From the NCBI RefSeq assembly GCF_000338295.1, contig NZ_ANMO01000120.1:124001-188000 (forward strand): a stretch of DNA of 64,000 nt, read 5' to 3'. Below, piece by piece: positions 5,014-10,206 of the stretch. The translations under genes were made by a program, and so were the position numbers. Within the stretch, counting starts at the first letter, position 1; each line of letters opens with the position of its first letter. The notes beneath the pieces were generated by a model. That model was not told where the DNA came from, made no database searches, and was given only the letters and a program-made list of their open reading frames with translations. This DNA comes from Rhodopirellula europaea 6C (GTDB taxonomy: Bacteria; Planctomycetota; Planctomycetia; Pirellulales; Pirellulaceae).

Positions 5014-5262
5014 TCAATTGTCGTTTTCGACGACCGCTGAACTTCCGCAGCAACTTCGTTTGATAGTGCAGCAGTAAGCTCGTTTTGCACAGCAAGTGTT
5101 GCCAGCCAATTCGGTCGAGGAATCAACCGCTTCGACCTGTGACACCGCCGCCGGAGTCGCCGTTGGCGAGACATCCGCTGCCGGCAAACCAAGTGCGGCT
5201 GCACCAAAGAGACCAAGCGACAAAACACCAGCAGCTACCGATTTCAATAACATGACTTCCAC
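5014..5262 (-). CDS. Small exported Cys-rich protein
   Basis: This 82-aa protein (or 79 aa if the start is the ATG at 5253) has a clear signal peptide (LLKSVAAGVLSLGLFGAAALG, cut probably near residue 30). The short mature part contains repeated Cys pairs: TCCAKRAYCCTIKRSCCGSS. The Cys-Cys spacing suggests metal binding or a disulphide-rich knot outside the cytoplasm. No family is recognised. It lies 93 bp upstream of the BON gene on the same strand and near mer-type genes, so involvement in metal handling is plausible but unproven. Confidence 0.7.
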   Translation of the reverse strand: MEVMLLKSVAAGVLSLGLFGAAALGLPAADVSPTATPAAVSQVEAVDSSTELAGNTCCAKRAYCCTIKRSCCGSSAVVENDN

Positions 5263-5503
5263 CTCTAGTCGTCAGGGATTGGGGAAACAAACGGCTCAGG
5301 CAGACTTAACCGCCTTTGCTCGCTTTACTGGTAGTTGGATGCAACGAGTCGCTTGCTTCTTCACGGATTTTTCTCAGGCTTGTTCTCATTGCGATTGTTT
5401 TCTTGTTCACCGTTTTCCCGTGAAGAAGTGGCGGACGAACGGCATCAAAAACCATGGACCGACACTTGATCGGTCGAATTCGATTCTCCGATGGAGCAAT
5501 CAG

Positions 5504-6322
5504 ATGGATTGCCAACAAGTGGAGCAATTGCTCTCGCACTATTTCGATCATGAGTTACGACGCGACGAGCGGGCTGAAGTCGAATCCCACTTAGAAAACT
5601 GTCCGCCATGTTCGGACCAATTGGCCGACATTCGCATGCTTTCGGACGCGGCTCGAAGCCTCTCTTCTGATCGTCCGCCTCACGACCTTTGGGATCGGAT
5701 TGCGGCTCAATTGAAAGAGCCAAGGTTGCCTGAATCAGCCAACAATCACGAAACCGTCGACCTAGAATCGAATTCTAGGTTTGATCAGAGACGATTATGG
5801 AGCGTGTTTGCGGTGGCGGCCGTGTTGCTGATTGGCGTCGGAATGGCCTGGATGTTCCAACCGTCCAGCCATCCGCATGATCCGCTGGTGAGTTACGCTC
5901 AACTGTTAGATTCAAGCCCACTGGTGGCGCAGGAGCTTCTTGTCTCCCAATACTCGGGCCAGACCGTTTCGGTGGATGAAGCGGTACAACTTGTCGGATA
6001 TCGACCTCGCAATGTTGATCCGCCTCCCAGTGGATACTCGTGCGACAAGCTGGTGGTGTTGGACATGCCGTGTTGCAAATGTGTCCAGGCGGTTTGGCAG
6101 CGTGATGATCAAACGCAAGTCGCGATTTTTGAACACAAGTCCAAGATGGATGATTGGTTCGAGGGCGAGCCGAGCGTCAGCATCAAGTGCCAAGAAAAAG
6201 TCTGCCGGGTCACGCAACTCGACGGTCAACTCGCCGCAACCTGGCAAGTCGGCTCTCGGCTGGTCACCGCGATCGGAGTGAGGGATACCGATGAATTAGC
6301 GACGTTCGTAGCCGCGCTCTGA
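5504..6322 (+). CDS. zf-HC2 anti-sigma-factor-like membrane protein with Cys-rich periplasmic domain (paralogue A)
   Basis: The 272-aa product has a cytoplasmic zf-HC2 zinc finger at residues 1-45 (HLENCPPC gives H-x3-C-x2-C), a linker, one membrane segment (VFAVAAVLLIGVGMAWMF, about 101-118) and a periplasmic domain. That domain has a PCCKC motif followed by WQRDDQTQVAIFEH, and a later CQEKVC, so it may hold a metal. The start is the ATG at 5504, where the zf-HC2 domain begins; an in-frame extension back to 5096 runs through the opposite-strand Cys-rich gene and is rejected. It is clearly homologous to the protein at 30422-31324. No ECF sigma gene lies next to it, unlike most zf-HC2 proteins. 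Confidence 0.85.
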   Translation: MDCQQVEQLLSHYFDHELRRDERAEVESHLENCPPCSDQLADIRMLSDAARSLSSDRPPHDLWDRIAAQLKEPRLPESANNHETVDLESNSRFDQRRLWSVFAVAAVLLIGVGMAWMFQPSSHPHDPLVSYAQLLDSSPLVAQELLVSQYSGQTVSVDEAVQLVGYRPRNVDPPPSGYSCDKLVVLDMPCCKCVQAVWQRDDQTQVAIFEHKSKMDDWFEGEPSVSIKCQEKVCRVTQLDGQLAATWQVGSRLVTAIGVRDTDELATFVAAL

Positions 6323-6563: not shown

Positions 6564-6968
6564 CTATTTCGCTCTTAGTCCCGTAACGATTTGGCAACAA
6601 TCCGTTTGCTCTTGATCCCGACATTGAGACAGCGCCAACTTCAAAACCTTGCGAACATGCCGCAAATCTTTGAGTCGGTCCTCAACATCAGTCAATCGAG
6701 CTTCGATCAGTACTCGAACGTTGCCGCATGTTGGTGCGTTTCCTTCGCCATCGGCAAGCAGTGACTTGACGTCTTCGAGTGTGAAACCAATGGCTTGCGC
6801 GGCTCGAATGAACTTCAGTTTCTTGAGCGATTGATCGCTGTAGAGTCGGTAGTTCCCGCAACTGCGATCTTCCGGTTCAACGAGACGGATTCGCTCGTAG
6901 TAGCGCAGAGTCGTTACTGGGATGCCAGCGGCTTTCGCCAATTCGCTGATTGTCAGTCGCTTGCTCAT
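6564..6968 (-). CDS. MerR-family metal-responsive regulator with mercury-type Cys triad
   Basis: The protein has 134 aa. The N-terminal winged helix (LTISELAKAAGIPVTTLRYY, ERIRLVEPEDRSCGNYRLY) is the standard MerR DNA-binding domain, followed by the dimerisation helix (ARLTDVEDRLKDLRHVRKVL). Three Cys match the MerR(Hg) metal site: PTCGNV at the start of the dimer helix and C-x8-C in QCRDQEQTDCC, with the same nine-residue step seen between Cys117 and Cys126 of Tn501 MerR. The start at 6968 is where homology begins; the upstream extension to 7145 crosses the operator. It is divergent from the CopZ-MerT-HMA gene and surely controls it. Hg(II) is the best guess for the ligand. Confidence 0.88.
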   Translation of the reverse strand: MSKRLTISELAKAAGIPVTTLRYYERIRLVEPEDRSCGNYRLYSDQSLKKLKFIRAAQAIGFTLEDVKSLLADGEGNAPTCGNVRVLIEARLTDVEDRLKDLRHVRKVLKLALSQCRDQEQTDCCQIVTGLRAK

Positions 6969-7047
6969 TTCTATTCTCCACGGGCCGGTTCCGAACCGGC
7001 GAAACGCTGGCTTTCGCGAGGGAAGAGCAAGAAATCGCAAATCCCGC

Positions 7048-7079
7048 TTGACCTTGCACCTAGGTGCAACCCCGATAAT
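7048..7079 (+). promoter_or_regulatory. MerR-type promoter/operator for the CopZ-MerT-HMA gene
   Basis: The site has a -35 box TTGACC (7048-7053) and a -10 box GATAAT (7074-7079) separated by 20 bp. The over-long spacer is filled by a perfect 16-bp palindrome TTGCACCTAGGTGCAA (7054-7069). A 19-20 bp spacer carrying a dyad is the hallmark of promoters that MerR proteins open by DNA distortion. It lies 59 bp before the start codon at 7138 and 80 bp from the divergent merR start, so it may serve both genes. Confidence 0.85.
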
Positions 7080-7137: not shown

Positions 7138-8352
7138 ATGAGCAAGCAGAGAGAGACAACGAAAAGGGTTCAGTGTCCGTCCTGTGGATACAAGGCCAAA
7201 CGAGTGAGCGCATCAACTATCGGCGCTTTGCTCGATGACGACTTGGCCGAACAGTTCACAGCAGACAGTCGATCCTGTTGTGCTACGGAAGGCGAAGGCT
7301 GCGCATCCATCAAAGAAGACACCGGCTGGCGGTTTTGCCCATCGCAGGATTGCGACGTCGTGTACTTCACCGAGCAAGGAGACACCCGGTTCACAAAGTC
7401 ACAACTGAAAGTTCCGGTCGGTGTGAAGGAATCCAGCGGGGAGCGCCCACTGTGCTACTGCTTCGGCCATTCGGTTGGCAGCATCAAAGAAGAACTTGGC
7501 ACGAAGGGGCGCTCCGACGCTCTGGAAGACATTCGGACAAAGATGAAAGACCCCGGCTGTCACTGTGAGACCTCCAATCCGAGCGGTTCATGCTGTCTGG
7601 GGAGTGTGACGAACGGTATCCAAATCGCTCAAGAGGAAATGCAGATGAATGACTCGACGGTGACGCTTGCATCAACGGCGAAGTCCTCGACAGGCCGAGG
7701 TGAGACGATCGCAAAGATTGGCACACTCGTTTCCGCAATCATGGCCTCGGCGTGCTGCTGGCTGCCGCTGCTTCTGCTGGCAGTTGGTGTTTCAGGGGCC
7801 GGGATTGCCACCATGCTGGAAACGTATCGCCCGCTGTTCATGGTTGTCACGTTTGGATTTCTCGGAGCAGCTTTCTACTTCACCTACCGCCCGAAGAAGG
7901 CGGCTGCCAACGTGGGATACGACTGTTGTCCCACAGGAAGCGCGAAGGCGAAAGATTGCTGTGCTCCGGCGGGCATACACCGCTTTAGCGTGATGGCCTT
8001 GAACAAAGTCATGCTATGGGGTGTGACGGTGCTGGCGGTCGCCTTTCTCTTCTTCCCAAGCTATGTCGGCTTGTTTCTGGGAACGGCAGCCGATGCAACT
8101 CTGTCCGGGAATATGAATCAAGCCGTATTCAAAATCGAAGGCATGACGTGTGAAGGATGTGCCTCCATCCTCGCCGAATCGATCAAAACGGCTCCAAGAG
8201 TACTGGCCGTCCACGTCGACTATGAAGCTGGGGAAGCCGTGGTTGGGACTGAAATCTGCTGTCCTGTGCCTGAAGAAGAAGTCCTCCTAGCCATTGAGCA
8301 GGCTGGCTTCAAAGGTAAGCAGCTTTCTTCTGGATCGTCGAGCAACCAATAG
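7138..8352 (+). CDS. CopZ N-domain / MerT / HMA three-part fusion, metal chaperone-transporter
   Basis: This 404-aa protein joins three known parts. Residues about 1-165 resemble the N-terminal [2Fe-2S]/Zn domain of Archaeoglobus CopZ: CPSCG, then CPSQDCDVVYF, LCYCFGHS, CHCETSNPSGSCCLG. Residues about 185-330 are a MerT-like transporter with three membrane helices, the first with the vicinal Cys pair (ASACCWLPLLLLAVG), plus cytoplasmic CCPTGSAKAKDCC. Residues about 335-400 are an HMA domain with GMTCEGC. The ATG at 7138 is preceded by an in-frame GTG at 7135; GGAG at about 7124 fits either. MerT-MerP fusions are known, but here the two CopZ halves bracket MerT. Role inferred: import of toxic metal (Hg) and hand-over through its own chaperone domains. 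No merA is present in the window. Confidence 0.85.
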   Translation: MSKQRETTKRVQCPSCGYKAKRVSASTIGALLDDDLAEQFTADSRSCCATEGEGCASIKEDTGWRFCPSQDCDVVYFTEQGDTRFTKSQLKVPVGVKESSGERPLCYCFGHSVGSIKEELGTKGRSDALEDIRTKMKDPGCHCETSNPSGSCCLGSVTNGIQIAQEEMQMNDSTVTLASTAKSSTGRGETIAKIGTLVSAIMASACCWLPLLLLAVGVSGAGIATMLETYRPLFMVVTFGFLGAAFYFTYRPKKAAANVGYDCCPTGSAKAKDCCAPAGIHRFSVMALNKVMLWGVTVLAVAFLFFPSYVGLFLGTAADATLSGNMNQAVFKIEGMTCEGCASILAESIKTAPRVLAVHVDYEAGEAVVGTEICCPVPEEEVLLAIEQAGFKGKQLSSGSSSNQ

Positions 8353-8415
8353 CTTTCCTGGGTGCGAGCGATAGCAGGTTTACGCGCTCTCACAGATTTT
8401 GAGTCAGCAAGCCAA

Positions 8416-10206
8416 TTATACTTCGCTCTCGCGATCCGAAAGCATTAAACGGATGCTCGCCAGGAACTGTTGGTAGTCTGATGATTCCGTTTCGGCGTAG
8501 TTCAGGTTGCGGAAAGCATTAGTGATCCGAACAAAGAAATCGCGGGCCTCTTCTTTGTCGTCGAACAGAAATTCTCGTTCGGTGATGTCTCGAATCAACC
8601 GCAGCATCGACTGCTGTCGCTCCAAAGGTGTCGCGACATCCACCGGATCGAAGGCATCCTGCTGCAAGTAGACCGTGTCGAGAAACTGTGCTTTTTGGTA
8701 AATGACGAAGTCGGCCAGCGAAATCCCTTCCTCGCCCGTCACTTGCATCATCTGATAGATTGCATCAGCTTGCCGAAGTAGATCGAGCAATGATTCGACG
8801 GTTGCGGTCCAGCCGGGAGCCAATCGGCGATCGAAATGCTCCTGCAGTTGCTCGCGATAGCGTGACCACGAAAGCAGCGGGTCGATGGCTGGGTAGAATC
8901 GCTTGTAGGCGCGGTCATACGAAAGGCCGAGGAAGGTCTTTACTGTACTGAGCGTAGACTGTGTGACCGGCTCTTCAAAATTCCCGCCTGCAGGTGATAC
9001 GGTTCCGATCATCGTCAGACTGCCCGAGGAACCGTCGCAAGTCGCGAGCACTCCCGCTCGTTCGTAGACGCCTCTGATCGCCGAATCAAGGTACGCCGGG
9101 AAGGCTTCTTCGCCAGGAATTTCCTCCAGTCGGCCCGAGGTTTCTCGCATCGCTTGAGCCCATCGCGATGTGGAGTCGGCCAACAGCAAAACATCAAGTC
9201 CCATCTGCCGGTAATATTCGCCCAGCGTAATGCCCATATAGATCGACGCTTCTCGGGCGGCGACCGGCATCGACGATGTATTGCAGATAATGACGGTTCG
9301 ATCCATCAGCGAGCCGCCGCCTCGTGGGTCTTGTGCCTGTGAGAACTCGTTGATGGTATCGACGACTTCACCCGCTCGCTCGCCACAGGCCACCACAATC
9401 ACGACATCGACGGCAGAGTGGCGTGCAATCAAGGTCTGCAACACGGTCTTGCCCGCACCGAATGGGCCAGGGATGCACGCCGTTCCCCCACGAGCAATTG
9501 GAAAGAAGGTATCAATGGTCCGAATGGTGGTGACCAACGGTTCAGACGGATACTTTCGTTCGACCAAGTGTTGTTGCAGGAGGTCTGCTGGCAATGGAAC
9601 TCGGACGGGCCATTCCTGTCGCATCGTCAACGGACGCTCACCTTGACCATCACGAATGCGGGCGATCGGCTCGTCAATCATAAAGCTACCTCCCTGAATC
9701 CACGTCAGCTCAGCTTGGCCACTCAGGTCAAAGGGAACCATGATTTTGTGTTCGACGCCGCGTTCCTGAACCGTGCCCAGAACGTCGCCTGCACGAAGTC
9801 GCTCGCCAGTACGTCGTAGCGGCACGAACGACCATTTTTGCGTGCGGTCGAGCGAGTCGGCATAGTGCCCACGCTTGAGAAAGAACCCGTCGCGATTGGC
9901 GAGTGTTTCCAAAGGGTTTTGTAAGCCGTCGAACACGGTTCCCAGCAGGCCGGGACCAAGTGACGCGGATAGCATCTGATGCGTCAACTCAACACCATCA
10001 CCAACCTTCACGCCTTCCGTGTCCTCAAACACCTGCAAATCCGCTTCCGTCCCATAGATTCGCAGCACTTCGGACTTCAACCGCTTGTCACCGAGACAGA
10101 CATACGCGACTTCGTTCTTGACGATCTGTCCCTCGGGGACTTCAATCGAAACGATATTGCCGTTGACAGCCGTGACTTGAGCGCCGGTTGCTACCTGCGT
10201 GTTCAT
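8416..10206 (-). CDS. ntpA: V-type ATP synthase/ATPase catalytic subunit A
   Basis: The 596-aa protein has the Walker A loop GPFGAGKT at about residue 240. It also has the A-subunit-specific extra domain (residues about 110-200, KWSFVPLRRTGERLRAGD), VVIVVACGERAGEVVD, and LLLADSTSRWAQAMRE (Walker B and arginine region). Length matches bacterial NtpA. It is the last gene of the leftward operon and overlaps the DUF2764 gene by 4 bp (10203-10206). It hydrolyses or makes ATP in the V1 headpiece. Direction (synthesis or pumping) cannot be told from sequence. Confidence 0.95.
   Translation of the reverse strand: MNTQVATGAQVTAVNGNIVSIEVPEGQIVKNEVAYVCLGDKRLKSEVLRIYGTEADLQVFEDTEGVKVGDGVELTHQMLSASLGPGLLGTVFDGLQNPLETLANRDGFFLKRGHYADSLDRTQKWSFVPLRRTGERLRAGDVLGTVQERGVEHKIMVPFDLSGQAELTWIQGGSFMIDEPIARIRDGQGERPLTMRQEWPVRVPLPADLLQQHLVERKYPSEPLVTTIRTIDTFFPIARGGTACIPGPFGAGKTVLQTLIARHSAVDVVIVVACGERAGEVVDTINEFSQAQDPRGGGSLMDRTVIICNTSSMPVAAREASIYMGITLGEYYRQMGLDVLLLADSTSRWAQAMRETSGRLEEIPGEEAFPAYLDSAIRGVYERAGVLATCDGSSGSLTMIGTVSPAGGNFEEPVTQSTLSTVKTFLGLSYDRAYKRFYPAIDPLLSWSRYREQLQEHFDRRLAPGWTATVESLLDLLRQADAIYQMMQVTGEEGISLADFVIYQKAQFLDTVYLQQDAFDPVDVATPLERQQSMLRLIRDITEREFLFDDKEEARDFFVRITNAFRNLNYAETESSDYQQFLASIRLMLSDRESEV

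Follow-up and report, generated by a model that had tools for sequence, protein, structure and literature searches.

The window analysed here, a 64-kb stretch of the genome of Rhodopirellula europaea 6C, carries a gene in which a CopZ-type cysteine domain, a MerT-type membrane core and an HMA domain are joined in one reading frame (CopZN-MerT-HMA), divergent from a MerR-family regulator. The features of the locus are as follows.

6564-6971, minus strand: divergent MerR-family regulator, 135 aa counted from MSKRLT (Pfam MerR_1 and MerR-DNA-bind)
7048-7079, plus strand: MerR-type promoter/operator, TTGACC, 20-bp spacer, GATAAT
7138-8352, plus strand: CopZN-MerT-HMA fusion gene, 404 aa (reading frame, Pfam and NCBIfam matches)
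7159-7617, plus strand: CopZ N-terminal domain, aa 8-160 (zf_CopZ, CopZ_Nterm_CC, 2hu9 in sequence and fold, cysteine conservation)
7699-8091, plus strand: MerT-type three-helix membrane domain, aa 188-318 (PF02411, hydropathy, model helices)
7753-7758, plus strand: TM1 pair Cys206-Cys207, conserved in 71 of 71 fusions
7924-7962, plus strand: TM2-TM3 loop cysteines C263, C264, C274 and C275 (DCCP...DCCA), predicted cytoplasmic (alignment columns, loop charge)
8122-8316, plus strand: HMA (MerP-like) domain, aa 329-393, predicted periplasmic (PF00403; GMTCEGC at 8140-8160)

The fusion frame is free of stops, starts at either 7135 (GTG) or 7138 (ATG) and ends at 8352, its 404 aa being counted from the ATG. 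A first-pass annotation had proposed that one frame combines a CopZ-type cysteine domain, a MerT and an HMA domain, and had named five motifs; all are present, namely CPSCG (C13/C16), CYCFGHS (C106/C108), SGSCCLG (C152/C153), ASACCW (C206/C207) and GMTCEGC (C338/C341), and the domain composition is borne out by three Pfam matches that each exceed the gathering cut-off (zf_CopZ, 54.4 bits against 28.4; MerT PF02411, 42.5 against 32.9; HMA PF00403, 35.4 against 24.8). Within NCBIfam, CopZ_Nterm_CC (NF047645) scores 109.1 bits against a cut-off of 100, and MerTP_fusion (NF033556) matches residues 196-392 as one stretch at 91.7 bits, under its cut-off of 180. Among PDB sequences the best match (phmmer, E 2.8e-12) is to the CopZ N-terminal domain from A. 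fulgidus (2hu9), which also ranks first in a Foldseek search (TM-score 0.79 over the target), followed by HMA domains including that of MerP. The query for this search was an AlphaFold2 model built with 55 family members (mean pLDDT 80.0, pTM 0.52), in which residues 176-186 and 255-282 have a pLDDT below 50. A chance ORF or an artefactual joining of frames was ruled out by full-length relatives of up to 77% identity, and a search for repeats around the fusion gene yielded nothing notable. Elsewhere in the window, a short ORF at 5014-5262 (minus strand) starts with a signal-like segment and contains three CC pairs (CCAKRAYCCTIKRSCC), with a sub-threshold Pfam match only, while a frame at 5096-6322 (plus strand), whose true start is probably near 5500, contains a zf-HC2 anti-sigma domain.

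Alignment of 71 fusions, including that of the window, places cysteine in all members at C106, C108, C143, C152 and C153, as well as at C206/C207 of TM1 and C338/C341 of the HMA domain; the aligned loci were selected by a CYCF or SCCWLPL motif, so that the conservation of C106/C108 and C206/C207 is partly built in. Positions C13, C16, C67 and C72 are cysteine in 69, 66, 70 and 70 of the 71, respectively, and in the loop C264 and C274 are widely kept (66/71 and 69/71), with C263 and C275 in 37/71 and 38/71. By analogy with the A. fulgidus structure, C106, C108, C143 and C153 (C152 lying beside C153) are the predicted [2Fe-2S] ligands, and C13, C16, C67 and C72 the predicted ligands of zinc. Cysteine conservation in the CopZ domain of homologues, on which the first-pass annotation had staked its reading beforehand, therefore holds, with the predicted Fe-S columns at 71/71. 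Among members of a survey set gathered by whole-protein search, CPVAG or CPVTG sometimes replaces CPxCG, so that, judged from sequence, the cysteines of the first zinc pair are kept less strictly than those of the Fe-S set.

Hydropathy peaks near residues 209, 241 and 305, together with helices at 187-215, 231-250 and 281-305 of the AlphaFold2 model, outline the membrane domain. Loop 2, between TM2 and TM3, holds six lysine or arginine residues, against none in loop 1 and none in the stretch after TM3, and by the positive-inside rule the CopZ-N domain and this loop are thus predicted to be cytoplasmic and the HMA domain periplasmic. The cytoplasmic placement of CopZ-N is independently supported by a planctomycetote relative, L068, in which the CopZ-N domain sits within the MerT TM2-TM3 loop. 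The HMA domain is the MerP-like part of the protein, since it is predicted to be periplasmic and the MerTP_fusion model spans MerT and HMA in one stretch. The earlier view of the protein as two CopZ halves bracketing a MerT is contradicted by loop charge, which predicts the HMA domain and CopZ-N on opposite sides of the membrane, and a joint action of both halves on the same side was set aside on the predicted topology. What survives of the single-chain importer originally envisaged is one chain with a MerT core and, on the predicted cytoplasmic side, a CopZ-type domain, but with an HMA domain that is predicted to be periplasmic and MerP-like.

Several loci depart from the standard arrangement. 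The L068 gene (genome G305, 7515-8696, minus strand), with its CopZ-N inserted in the TM2-TM3 loop, has an in-frame TGA at the expected first HMA cysteine (GMT-TGA-PQSC), a possible selenocysteine; a search for SelB found none over the cut-off in G305, a 64%-complete genome, but G161, which belongs to the same family, has one. At L051 (7046-8995, minus strand) the order CopZN-MerT-HMA-HMA is followed by a C-terminal thioredoxin domain, periplasmic by the same predicted topology, and at L129 (1855-3109, plus strand) CopZ-N and MerT-HMA occupy separate adjacent ORFs, so that the gene is either truly split or broken by a frameshift in the MAG.

The fusion shares with the MerTP fusion (NF033556) and with MerT/MerP of mer operons a MerT core with a TM1 cysteine pair and loop cysteines, a C-terminal HMA domain, MerR control and, at some loci, an adjoining merA or merB. 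It differs from them in having some 160 additional aa at the N-terminus that form a CopZ-type domain, in its MerTP_fusion score of 91.7 bits against the cut-off of 180, and in that MerA over the family cut-off is mostly missing from the genome. Similarly, A. fulgidus CopZ (2hu9) and stand-alone CopZ_Nterm_CC proteins (NF047645) have the same N-terminal fold and the same cysteines, but here CopZ-N is tethered to a membrane transporter, with the HMA domain three helices away and predicted on the opposite side of the membrane. The model NF045683 (MerT/CopZ fusion-like heavy metal transport selenoprotein) likewise places MerT before HMA; the fusion, however, scores 50 bits against its cut-off of 375, and the match covers residues 192-372 only, leaving the N-terminal CopZ domain outside. 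Our literature search, whose coverage left out most subscription papers and preprints, found no published description of CopZN-MerT-HMA. In the accessible portions of the papers concerned, a table gives Planctomycetes a single entry, taken as MerA, without mention of the fusion (PMC8261052), MerT- and CopZ-type selenoproteins are listed (PMC9312934), and four further papers contain nothing on the fusion (PMC7558416, PMC5552934, PMC9948709, PMC3737084).

Across 392 planctomycetote genomes, 75 match the fusion protein at E<=0.001, many through the HMA domain alone. Examination of 40 stretches from these 75 revealed 31 ORFs in 26 genomes with the order CopZN-MerT-HMA(-HMA), and with the source genome the three-domain fusion is therefore present in at least 27 of the 392, a hand tally and lower bound. 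A separate scan of named genomes, comprising 76 loci that are the best-kept part of 205 relatives, placed the full order in one ORF at 70 of the 76, mostly in Planctomycetota with some in Verrucomicrobiota; the exceptions (L110, L114, L129, L131, L142 and L150) are cut by a contig end, split or missing a part. The first-pass annotation had asked whether the architecture is already described and common: it is fairly common in Planctomycetota, but no description was found. In the other two phyla sampled, as given by the phylum of their centre genomes, the fusion is nearly absent, with one clear case (the centre genome itself) and one possible partial case among 288 genomes of the verrucomicrobial sample, and the full fusion among 398 genomes of the pseudomonadotal sample only in the centre, the Porticoccaceae MAG G394. 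A broad presence in Pseudomonadota was therefore rejected; L100 does not differ from the planctomycetote L099 and appears to be a binning error. A presence in Bacteroidota was likewise rejected, as the sample drawn around the "Bacteroidales" MAG L086 returned the genomes and coordinates of the planctomycetote survey.

No match to the fusion came from the eight remaining sampled genomes of the source genome's own family or from three of its order, whereas copies of 74-77% identity occur in another family of the same class, a patchy distribution that makes mobility of the gene probable. L159, one of the copies, resides on the mobilizable plasmid pK2D_1 (CP036351.1, 8001-9236, plus strand), with czcCBA downstream; it is annotated as merA/Mercuric reductase, a label that appears to be wrong, as the encoded protein of 411 aa aligns with the fusion along its length. 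A quick tree built without bootstraps groups the source fusion with L083, L084 and L085 (99*), its three closest named relatives (76-77% identical, L083 at 77%).

With regard to regulation, the divergent regulator scores 100.8 bits with the Zn model PRK09514, 99.4 with Hg-MerR TIGR02051 (cut-off 150.85) and 86.5 with CueR TIGR02044, all below the respective cut-offs, and its best PDB matches are CadR, in first place, and Hg-MerR. It has cysteine at all three metal-ligand columns, a divalent-metal (+2) signature. According to two papers, the C79-type residue sets the choice between +1 and +2 ions in the MerR family (PMC9909328), and the metal site of Hg-MerR consists of Cys82/117/126 (PMC5027573). 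A MerR gene lies within 600 bp of the fusion at 49 of the 76 loci, and the position held by serine in CueR is cysteine in 47 of these neighbours and serine in none; of the remaining two, L153 has R there and L118 an X from unclear letters. TIGR02051 is the best model for seven of ten neighbour MerRs scanned and the second best for the regulator of the window, no scanned regulator reaches the Hg-MerR cut-off, and on these sequences profile scores fail to separate Hg from Zn regulators.

The spacer of the promoter ahead of the fusion holds a perfect 8+8 dyad, TTGCACCTAGGTGCAA, at 7054-7069, and with its 20 bp fits the MerR-type promoter spacing rule of 19-20 bp given in PMC9909328. The same operator pattern occurs at 25 of 26 divergent merR-fusion loci (18/19 in a first test of 18 divergent loci plus the source locus, and 7/7 in seven further divergent loci), whereas shuffled sequences showed it in 1.8% of cases in the first test and 3.7% in the second; the sole miss, L096, has AATAAT instead of GATAAT. 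The site at 7048-7079 is the only one in the 64-kb window, with none in 100 shuffles. In each of seven genomes searched, the source genome included, the full site (<=3 mismatches) occurs exactly once, before the fusion, and the backwards pattern never; since the pattern was derived from these same loci, the finding is the once-per-genome count rather than the match itself. Six of the seven genomes have no MerA over the cut-off, and with a single operator per genome, placed before the fusion, the fusion looks in these six like the sole target of its MerR sensor. The operator with its 20-bp spacer is common to loci with merA (L084, L085, L120 and L121) and loci lacking it.

Where merA is present it encodes a GGTCVN active site and a KLSCC tail and lies on the same strand 0.5-1.3 kb downstream of the fusion, often with one ORF between. 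This arrangement was identified at six of the 70 named triple-fusion loci, L084 (as two overlapping frames), L085, L117, L120, L121 and L141, and additionally at G238/L035. The curated cut-off for MerA (TIGR02053, 454.45) is passed at L085, in G220 (the contig of L141) and in G238; it can miss true MerA, as L117 scores 413.7, and L120 and L121 were called from cluster, motif and tail, with no TIGR02053 score. Throughout the phylum, where four candidates per genome were scored (up to 33 in each of the 27 fusion genomes), MerA over the cut-off occurs in 4 of 392 genomes, each time adjoining a MerT-type gene, which is the triple fusion in G238 and G220 and a MerTP-type gene in G084 and G206; this corresponds to 2/27 fusion genomes versus 2/365 others (Fisher p 0.025). 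Genes for the organomercury lyase MerB were also seen, with merB following the fusion of G020 (L052/L173) at 0.6 kb and a gene for a MerR-MerB fusion protein preceding the L095 triple fusion by 0.2 kb. This MerR-MerB gene is a single ORF (L095:7073-8146, plus strand) that unites a MerR regulator with MerB directly upstream of the CopZN-MerT-HMA gene. MerB exceeds its cut-off in two of 29 genomes tested, G020 and G016, that of G016 lying on a different contig from its two fusions and containing an internal stop; the source genome yielded no MerB match.

Most copies of the fusion have no such partner. No MerA was found in the flanking DNA examined at 64 of the 70 named triple-fusion loci, many of them on short contigs; one of the three closest named relatives, L083 (77%), and G024 (74%) lack it as well. 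MerA over the cut-off is missing from 25 of the 27 planctomycetote fusion genomes, and among the matches listed at E<=1e-100 in the 27 no further one reaches the end of the MerA model. These counts, together with regulators that all fall short of the Hg-MerR cut-off, would argue against mercury as the substrate. RND-efflux genes (CzcA/AcrB type, by reading of the cluster) flank 18 of the 76 loci and P-type ATPase genes 14 (three confirmed as heavy-metal type), neighbours that at several loci would fit other divalent metals. The fusion might then handle Zn, Cd, Pb or Cu(I), with MerT as a general soft-metal conduit, CopZ-N as a Cu/Zn acceptor and the MerA neighbours as a side branch. The occurrence of CopZ-N in a copper chaperone (2hu9), a regulator scoring as high with the Zn as with the Hg model and its best PDB match to CadR are all in keeping with this idea, but the regulator has cysteine in place of the CueR serine at the +1/+2 position, several branches of the tree include loci with a merA or merB neighbour, and the model that spans the fusion core is MerTP_fusion. 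On balance we consider a substrate other than mercury unlikely.

The first-pass annotation had also raised the possibility that transport is coupled to a redox step without MerA, and the source genome indeed has none over the family cut-off; its best match (G000:C120:253940-255280) scores 388.6 bits against 454.45 and ends before the C-terminal cysteine pair of the model. A plain replacement of MerA by CopZ-N was not upheld, because L084 and L085, two of the three closest named relatives, carry merA downstream. The MerA proteins examined begin without an HMA domain, for which the tethered CopZ-N may therefore stand in. As a variant of mercury handling that differs in its end point, the system could be an ordinary mer system in split form, with Hg(II) reduced by an unlinked MerA-like flavoprotein of the GGDCLN family, which has no C-terminal cysteine pair. 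TIGR02053 matches of 380-415 bits, under the cut-off, are present in 18 of 36 genomes, the source included, and such a gene is adjacent and convergent to the fusion in G146 (L042), with another 17 bp upstream in L156. The lack of the cysteine pair in the MerA-like proteins examined, the position of the source-genome gene outside operator control and the occurrence of equally strong matches (E<=1e-100) in 7 of 14 control genomes make this division of labour doubtful.

It is also conceivable that the locus is the relic of a mer operon after loss of merA, with the fusion left over or serving only to sensitise the cell. Two of the three nearest named relatives retain merA, the L084 copy reads as two overlapping frames, and the merA label requires five changes on the tree (at least four forced by starred branches), although the tree gives no direction to these changes. 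The cysteines kept in 71/71 fusions and the operator kept at 25/26 divergent loci, most without merA in the flanking DNA examined, render a relic very improbable.

The domain order, the cysteine conservation, the single operator in each of seven searched genomes and the recurring merR, merA and merB neighbours are observed; the topology, the metal, the direction in which it flows and the content of a cluster are our inferences. We propose, with a probability of roughly 0.6, that the fusion is a MerR-induced, membrane-anchored Hg(II)-handling protein. Mercury is favoured by the merA and merB neighbours, the +2-type cysteines of the MerR regulators and the operator common to MerA-bearing and MerA-less loci. 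The protein would work like MerTP with a built-in cytoplasmic acceptor: Hg(II) would first be captured by the periplasmic HMA domain, then pass to the TM1 cysteine pair of the MerT core and on to its loop cysteines between TM2 and TM3 on the cytoplasmic side, the tethered CopZ-N domain being its first acceptor inside the cell. Where merA adjoins, CopZ-N could hand Hg(II) on to MerA for reduction, and in hosts without MerA, such as the source genome, the end point would have to lie either with CopZ-N itself or with a MerA-like oxidoreductase encoded elsewhere.

Textbook mercury resistance couples import to MerA, and a cell that only imports should suffer from it; MerT-type import in the absence of MerA should make cells more sensitive to Hg, a point for which a 1979 work by Nakahara, cited in PMC4570782, reportedly stands. 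The fusion should consequently have its own means of mercury disposal, a MerA-like partner or another metal. A bolder version of mercury handling is a one-protein defence: as the sole target of its Hg sensor, the fusion would bring Hg(II) into the cell and dispose of it at the tethered CopZ-N domain, which would either trap the metal tightly or transfer electrons to it from a [2Fe-2S] cluster, with no need for MerA; we offer this tentatively and with the odds against it. One sensor controlling one importer-type protein in genomes without MerA over the cut-off would imply that Hg(II) has a so far unrecognised end point inside the cell or that a MerT-type protein serves another metal, and in both cases the reading of merT-like genes in genomes and metagenomes would change.
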